Position numbers and translations under genes: made by a program. DNA of 49,696 nt from a virus, in IMG/VR virus record IMGVR_UViG_3300046538_000294, positions 1 to 49,696 of that record; one strand, 5' to 3'. Positions 37,032 through 37,383 of the stretch are shown here, one piece after another. Positions within the stretch are counted from its first letter, which is position 1. Each line of letters starts with the position of its first letter. Under the pieces are notes generated by a model. The model searched no databases. It had not been told where the DNA came from and saw nothing but the letters and a program-made list of their open reading frames with translations.

Positions 37032-37081
37032 ATTTCACTGGCTGGCCTTGGCGACAGGGCCAGACGGGAAATCAAAAGGAG
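37032..37081 (+). promoter_or_regulatory. Hairpin leader element, copy 1
   Basis: ATTTCACTG (37032-37040), then a CTGGCC / GGCCAG stem around the 10-nt loop TTGGCGACAG (37048-37057), then GGGAAATCAA and GGAG, 7 nt before the start codon at 37089. The same order with a different stem recurs at 37334-37383. It looks like a cis-acting RNA element overlapping the ribosome site region. Confidence 0.65.
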
Positions 37082-37088
37082 TTCCACG

Positions 37089-37331
37089 ATGGGAAGACAA
37101 ATCACAGCAAGCCTCGCGCCGCTGCTCAACGCCGGGTGCCGGTTGAGTGTGATCAATCATGGCGAGGTTGACGCTCACCTCAGGGTTGAAACGCCGACAG
37201 GCCAAATAATCAACAGCGACGACTCCAGCTTCGGCTCGCTGAGTTTCGATTGCCGGGACAAGGCGTCTTCACATAACGGCTGGATGGAGCACTGGCTGAT
37301 TAATCACGAAGTGCCTTATGCCCACGGGTGA
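37089..37331 (+). CDS. Hypothetical early protein
   Basis: An 80-residue protein starting MGRQITASLAPLLNAGCRL, first gene of the plus-strand early operon. Beta-rich with a central VDAHLRVETPTGQIINSDDS and an aromatic C-terminus. AGGAG lies 7 nt upstream. A hairpin element precedes it. Family not recognised; early phage operons often carry such small host-takeover or anti-host proteins. Confidence 0.68.
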   Translation: MGRQITASLAPLLNAGCRLSVINHGEVDAHLRVETPTGQIINSDDSSFGSLSFDCRDKASSHNGWMEHWLINHEVPYAHG

Positions 37332-37333
37332 AC

Positions 37334-37383
37334 ATTTCACTGATGCAGCTTGGCGACAGGCTGCATTGGGAAATCAACCGGAG
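37334..37383 (+). promoter_or_regulatory. Hairpin leader element, copy 2
   Basis: ATTTCACTG (37334-37342), stem ATGCAGC / GCTGCAT around the identical loop TTGGCGACAG (37350-37359), then GGGAAATCAA and GGAG before the start codon at 37392. All seven stem pairs are preserved although the stem bases differ from copy 1, a sign of selection for structure. Confidence 0.65.

Follow-up and report, generated by a model that had tools for sequence, protein, structure and literature searches.

The nearest precedent for the element described here is the PeSL (promoter early stem-loop) of T4-type phages, a small stem-loop found between early genes that marks intense gene shuffling in related phages (PMC4503421). 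Both elements are small stem-loops between shuffled early phage genes; PeSLs are, however, titled composite promoter-terminator motifs, whereas the Pseudomonas element fails the features of a promoter and of a terminator, lies directly before the Shine-Dalgarno (SD) sequence and occurs in an unrelated group of temperate phages. That account cites Arbiol 2010 and Comeau 2014 for PeSLs. In the commonest type of the Pseudomonas element, upstream conservation extends no further than about 2 nt, leaving nothing that could represent a promoter within the motif, and no U-tract follows the hairpin as it would in a terminator-type stem-loop.

Other known structures share single features with this element. 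The operator hairpin of T4 gene 43 lies upstream of, and overlaps, the ribosome-binding site, and its sequence is partly conserved between relatives (PMC3014915). Both are phage hairpins close to a ribosome-binding site and partly conserved in sequence, but the T4 operator serves one gene and that gene's own product, while the Pseudomonas element is common to 92 unrelated protein families and its loop varies. Structure upstream of the SD can set the rate of initiation at structured standby sites, a physical principle tested on synthetic 5' UTRs (PMC3936740). The hairpin is likewise a structure just upstream of the SD, but it is a conserved element with compensatory stems. The intercistronic RNase III sites of phage T7 and 5' stabilizing hairpins of the ompA type delimit or protect single-gene messages; compared with these, the Pseudomonas element has a shorter stem and an unrelated sequence. 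Lambda nut sites resemble the present system in having a boxA-like element in the early leader, and many copies of the hairpin carry GNRA-type loops, but the hairpin is a 41-nt element that precedes the SD, is repeated for each gene and, in the loci counted, comes 125 nt or more after boxA.

The stretch of DNA analyzed, referred to below as the window, is a virus record of 49,696 bases. It contains two hairpins before adjacent small genes (Table 1), located exactly where the sequence-only reading had placed them; their sequences are ATTTCACTGGCTGGCCTTGGCGACAGGGCCAGACGGGAAAT (copy 1) and ATTTCACTGATGCAGCTTGGCGACAGGCTGCATTGGGAAAT (copy 2). Behind each come, in order, a short linker, GGAG and ATG (CAAAAGGAG and CAACCGGAG, respectively, before the ATG), and the second begins 2 nt past the stop codon of the first gene. 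Both copies adopt the fold AUUUC-A(bulge)-CUG-stem-UUG-GCGA-CAG-stem-(C/U)GG-GAAAU. The gapped hairpin pattern occurs twice in the window and in none of 100 dinucleotide shuffles, and the folding of the 43-nt elements compared with shuffles gave z = -5.4 for copy 1 and -6.6 for copy 2, with 0 of 200 shuffles as good. The earlier observation that the stems differ (CTGGCC/GGCCAG and ATGCAGC/GCTGCAT) and nevertheless pair thus holds for two well-folded structures. Its outline of the hairpin needed correction in two respects: the supposed 10-nt loop, TTGGCGACAG, is no loop, since UUG pairs with CAG and the true loop is the GNRA tetraloop GCGA, and the so-called flanks ATTTC and GAAAT pair with each other, making the whole 41 nt one hairpin with a bulged A. 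By itself TTGGCGACAG is unremarkable, with a third occurrence at position 44437 that has no hairpin structure.

Table 1. Positions of the hairpins and neighboring features in the window (+ and -, strand;., no strand assigned).
Feature	Position	Strand	Description or basis
DUF1654 gene (PF07867)	36306-36623	-	divergent from hairpin operon
Sigma-70-like early promoter, TTGACT-18-CATATT, driving hairpin operon	36762..36791	+	consensus scan, 9/12 positions
Perfect 11-bp inverted repeat overlapping promoter	36767..36793	.	repeat search
boxA-like CGCTCTTTAA, head of leader RNA	36838..36847	+	sequence
Structured leader, boxA to first hairpin	36848..37031	+	clustering, alignment and folding of leaders
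Hairpin copy 1	37032..37072	+	41 nt; commonest stem type; 17 bp in all, bulged A, GCGA loop
SD GGAG, gene 1	37078..37081	+	sequence
Small early gene 1	37089..37331	+	80 aa; no Pfam or PHROG match
Hairpin copy 2	37334..37374	+	41 nt; stem differs, outer stem and loop as copy 1
SD GGAG, gene 2	37380..37383	+	sequence
Small early gene 2	37392..37598	+	68 aa; no Pfam or PHROG match

The two hairpins belong to a much larger family. A pattern scan of viral contigs (at least 119 stretches) was followed by a covariance model built from 15 variants, which recovered many diverged copies near the first ones, and by a second model built from those. The resulting collection comprises 291 copies, 121 distinct sequences and 18 stem types at 190 loci. 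Compensatory change on both sides was found at 11 of the 17 pairs in an alignment of 53 distinct sequences and at 10 of 17 in an alignment of 70. Overall 98.1% (53 sequences) and 97.3% (70 sequences) of the cells are paired, compared with 30-57% when partners are slid, and although both alignments were fitted to the structure, which favors it, this gap is far too large to be explained in that way. Covariation scores of 0.42 and 0.36 for the 53 and 70 sequences compare with 0.12 and 0.10 in column shuffles. There is strong support, reaching well past the two copies of the window, for the claim of the sequence-only reading that a selected RNA structure with compensatory changes stands before early genes. 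We regard it as virtually certain that these hairpins are a real structured RNA family.

Across the family the outer UUC/GAA stem, the bulged A and two U-G wobbles are retained, the latter at pair 8 in 68 and at pair 17 in 67 of the 70 aligned sequences. U-G wobbles cannot pair in the antisense RNA, where they become A-C, and they break the DNA palindrome; the object under selection is thus a sense-strand RNA. Of these wobbles, one stands together with a C-G pair above the bulged A and the second near the top; the sequence CAAC is also conserved. The outer stem itself covaries (A-U, U-A and G-C), and element lengths vary by 1-3 nt (41-45 and 47 nt). Examples of the stem types are AUUUC..CUGGCC..GCGA, GAUUC..AGCACCUGG-GCGA, UUUUC..UGCACCUG-GUGA, GUUUC..CUUC-UCAC and AUUU-ACUG-AUGCCGCUUC-UAU. 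A fixed loop, taken initially as a rule, failed as a family signature: GNRA loops are present in 71 of the 121 distinct sequences, and copies outside the window carry GUGA, GCAA, UCAC, UAU or 6-nt loops, with CACC in phage phi297. The sequence-only reading had held that copies lacking the loop sequence would argue against a selected structure. Such copies do exist, with other loops in its place, and the structure itself stands; loop variation counts against a factor that reads the loop, not against the structure.

The family is not catalogued in Rfam. At the gathering threshold, Rfam 15 gave no match in the window or in 10 loci with other stem types, so the suggested comparison with known families identified none; the only sub-threshold match was mir-2067, at 25.4 bits against a gathering score of 70. 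A search of the open-licence literature by literal sequence and by topic returned no description of the hairpin element. The family is restricted to Pseudomonadaceae. In the genome collection, 68 of 71 matches were to Pseudomonas or Pseudomonadaceae, and the other three are probably chance. By a prefiltered search, whose counts are lower bounds and from which the centre genome (a Pseudomonas reached via a locus) was set aside, at least 69 of 149 genomes of the genus and at least 11 of 78 further genomes of the family have a model match, as opposed to 0 of 194 genomes elsewhere in the order and 0 of 228 elsewhere in the class. Named phages with the hairpin include phiPSA1, psageB2, Medea1, Aurca01, phi297, MD8 and LESphi3. 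One Pseudomonas genome (G006, C1) contains three separate clusters of three hairpins each, which are probably three prophages.

The hairpins occupy a defined position with respect to translation signals. An SD and start codon lie within 45 nt of 266 of the 291 copies (91%), compared with 13.6% at random places on the same strand and 11% at the same sites on the opposite strand. The 3' end of the hairpin is about 5 nt before the SD, and the distance from hairpin end to start codon is 16-18 nt in 162 of 264 scored copies. Neighboring hairpins are on the same strand in all 101 pairs, mostly spaced 200-700 nt apart, and the upstream stop codon falls 1-10 nt before the hairpin in 82 copies and within the start of the hairpin in 37.

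The genes behind the hairpins are diverse. The commonest hairpin type is found ahead of 51 of the 92 gene families, and a single family may stand behind up to 5 types. Most of the hairpin-led proteins tested have no Pfam match or merely a weak one, with exceptions that include alginate lyase-like, CsrA, TerB-like, LuxR-type HTH and N6-methylase-like proteins. The alginate lyase-like protein (PF08787) is encoded by a hairpin-led gene in several viral contigs (L002, L004, L006 and others). In 44 contexts of the commonest type with independent flanks, the hairpin itself is conserved at about 1.9 bits and the sequence beyond it at about 0.1; since conservation ends at the hairpin edges, the shared unit is the hairpin and not a longer block. 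A natural reading of this pattern is that genes may be exchanged between hairpins by recombination. Along the operon the stem types tend to follow one another in a set order (for instance the AUUU-ACUG type first, the UUUUC type next and the commonest last; seen in L017, L056, L011, L001 and others), as if positions were type-specific. Neighboring pairs that are at least 90% identical make up 2 of 43 in the genome-collection loci, compared with 10% in shuffles, a difference that is not significant (12% of shuffles are as low); for this comparison the viral set carries a bias from the search seed. An avoidance of identical neighboring stems, which would prevent gene-deleting recombination, is suggestive only.

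In the window the hairpins open a rightward early operon with the order promoter/palindrome, boxA, leader, hairpin-gene-hairpin-gene. The promoter is the only consensus match in 36640-37420 and precedes the first hairpin by about 240 nt; the palindrome that overlaps it is probably the operator of the CI-like repressor, which we infer to be the binding protein. A gene for a CI-like S24 repressor and the divergent DUF1654 gene lie upstream, and this setting bears out the early-gene placement in the sequence-only reading. No terminator-like site was found on the + strand. Of the 76 loci with full flanks, 38 have a relative of the DUF1654 gene, at a median of about 430 nt upstream of the first hairpin. 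In phi297 the order is CI, ParA-like, DUF1654, promoter, hairpin, small genes, CsrA-like regulator, nuclease and RecT-like protein, a gene order similar to that of a lambda PL-type early operon.

The boxA-headed leader of the window belongs to a family common to 31 loci, and 36838-37031 contains the conserved blocks GCGACCGGCG and GAATGACC together with short covarying stems. A second, unrelated-looking boxA leader family is present in 32 loci. Overall a boxA lies in the 450 nt before the first hairpin at 81 of 175 loci (0.03 expected per 450 nt), mostly 125-275 nt away from it. The boxA-headed leader is possibly a processive-antitermination leader. No copy has a boxA within 80 nt upstream. 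With boxA far ahead of the first hairpin and never close to the copies, any antitermination is a matter of the leader, and the hairpin is a distinct element repeated gene by gene.

Several readings of the hairpin can be set aside. An SD-sequestering switch, riboswitch or thermometer does not fit, as the mean unpaired probability of the SD is 0.49 in the native sequence and 0.50 with the hairpin deleted, compared with 0.40 when the hairpin is shuffled (p = 5e-11), and anti-SD-like words occur in only 16 of 291 hairpins, although long-range alternatives may exist. The switch responding to a bound protein or small RNA that had been put forward for the window did not emerge from the analysis: the SD is unsequestered and no gene checked is linked in all loci, though a bound protein stays the main rival discussed below. 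Intrinsic termination is rejected by the absence of a U-tract, since in 286 of 291 copies the 8 nt that follow contain no more than one T. CsrA as a dedicated regulator is likewise rejected, a CsrA-like gene being present in 5 of the 76 loci with full flanks, though some follow hairpins.

With no U-tract, an unmasked SD, a non-coding sequence, a distant boxA and no universally linked gene, a self-contained structural module is favored. We propose that the hairpin may be an insulating and stabilizing translation module that makes each early gene its own translation and mRNA unit and is spread by recombination, a proposal that we consider evenly poised between right and wrong. At its distance from the start codon the hairpin lies just outside the footprint of the initiating ribosome, and it would close the message 5' of each ribosome-binding site; it could thereby shield the SD from any sequence that happens to precede it and guard the 5' side of the message that follows. 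Each small early gene would then be a unit of translation and stability within one repressor-controlled early transcript, and the hairpin would also offer a short homology block for exchange of early-gene cassettes between phages by recombination. Such exchange would explain identical hairpins between unrelated flanks, as well as different stem types in one phage. Because in-silico deletion leaves SD accessibility unchanged, insulation is visible only relative to other sequences of equal length.

The bulged A, the two U-G pairs and CAAC exceed the needs of a bare insulator and point to possible recognition by something. They leave a bound factor as the main rival to the module: a single trans-acting RNA-binding protein, in all likelihood from the Pseudomonas host, may bind the hairpin and turn translation of every hairpin-led early gene up or down in concert. 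The bulged A, the C-G plus U-G above it, the second U-G and CAAC survive while the stem changes, the restriction to Pseudomonadaceae fits a host factor, and the gp43 operator hairpin of T4 gene 43 provides a precedent (PMC3014915). We nevertheless consider this possible but unlikely, as the loop varies, neither DUF1654 nor CsrA nor any other gene checked is universally linked, and the SD itself is free. In its strongest form, which we would hold rather doubtful, a single Pseudomonas factor would read the bulged-A/U-G helix, through which phages across the genus would place dozens of unrelated early genes under one shared control. Were it true, any gene placed behind the hairpin would be expressed and regulated at once, giving a genus-wide plug-in socket for phage accessory genes. 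A further explanation, which we hold improbable, is processing of the kind known from phage T7: a nuclease (RNase III or RNase E) would cut at the hairpin or close by and so divide the early transcript into messages of one gene each. This is consistent with the intercistronic place and the tandem order on one strand, and single-gene messages would explain one copy per gene; however, the 17-bp stem has a bulge and often a mismatch, and a broken stem of this length is short for RNase III, nor do the flanks, at about 0.1 bits, contain a common cut motif outside the hairpin.

Explanations at the level of transcription, DNA or protein fare worse. The boxA-like sites that head leaders, together with GNRA loops resembling those of boxB, could suggest nut/boxB-like or put-like antitermination sites repeated along the early operon, but lambda-type nut sites at each copy are at odds with the lack of boxA in the 80 nt upstream, and one site at the operon head should suffice, whereas copies stand gene by gene at a constant spacing from the SD; we regard this as very improbable. 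Slightly less credible still, and in our view highly improbable, is a hairpin that acts only as mobile or recombinogenic DNA, in the manner of REP, MITE or attC elements, and has no role as RNA. The occurrence of nearly identical copies within unrelated flanks would suit it, but the conserved U-G pairs are sense-only, the stems show compensatory changes, and the hairpins keep a fixed place before the SD on one strand only; the 3' CAAC also has no complementary GTTG at the 5' edge with which to form the paired ends of attC. Finally, both window copies encode similar peptides in one frame (for instance ISLxxLGDRxxxEI), yet the likelihood that the sequence is kept as peptide code is practically nil, since a coding constraint is refuted by the variation in element length and by start codons that occupy each of the three frames counted from the hairpin (80, 128 and 58).

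Whichever reading applies, this is an RNA family without an Rfam entry in nearly half of the sampled Pseudomonas genomes, and it offers a concrete case of how phages can swap genes yet keep them expressed. The hairpin also provides a sequence handle for small, mostly unannotated early phage genes, the class in which anti-defense and host-takeover genes are expected, and might serve as a natural part where expression in Pseudomonas is to be controlled. The window also contains a TTG-start gene at 37615-37800 on the + strand (MANRPTNRIKF...) that has no hairpin before it, and the relative of this gene at another locus, L050 (MAKRPTNRIKY...), is preceded by a hairpin, making the two a natural pair with and without the element.
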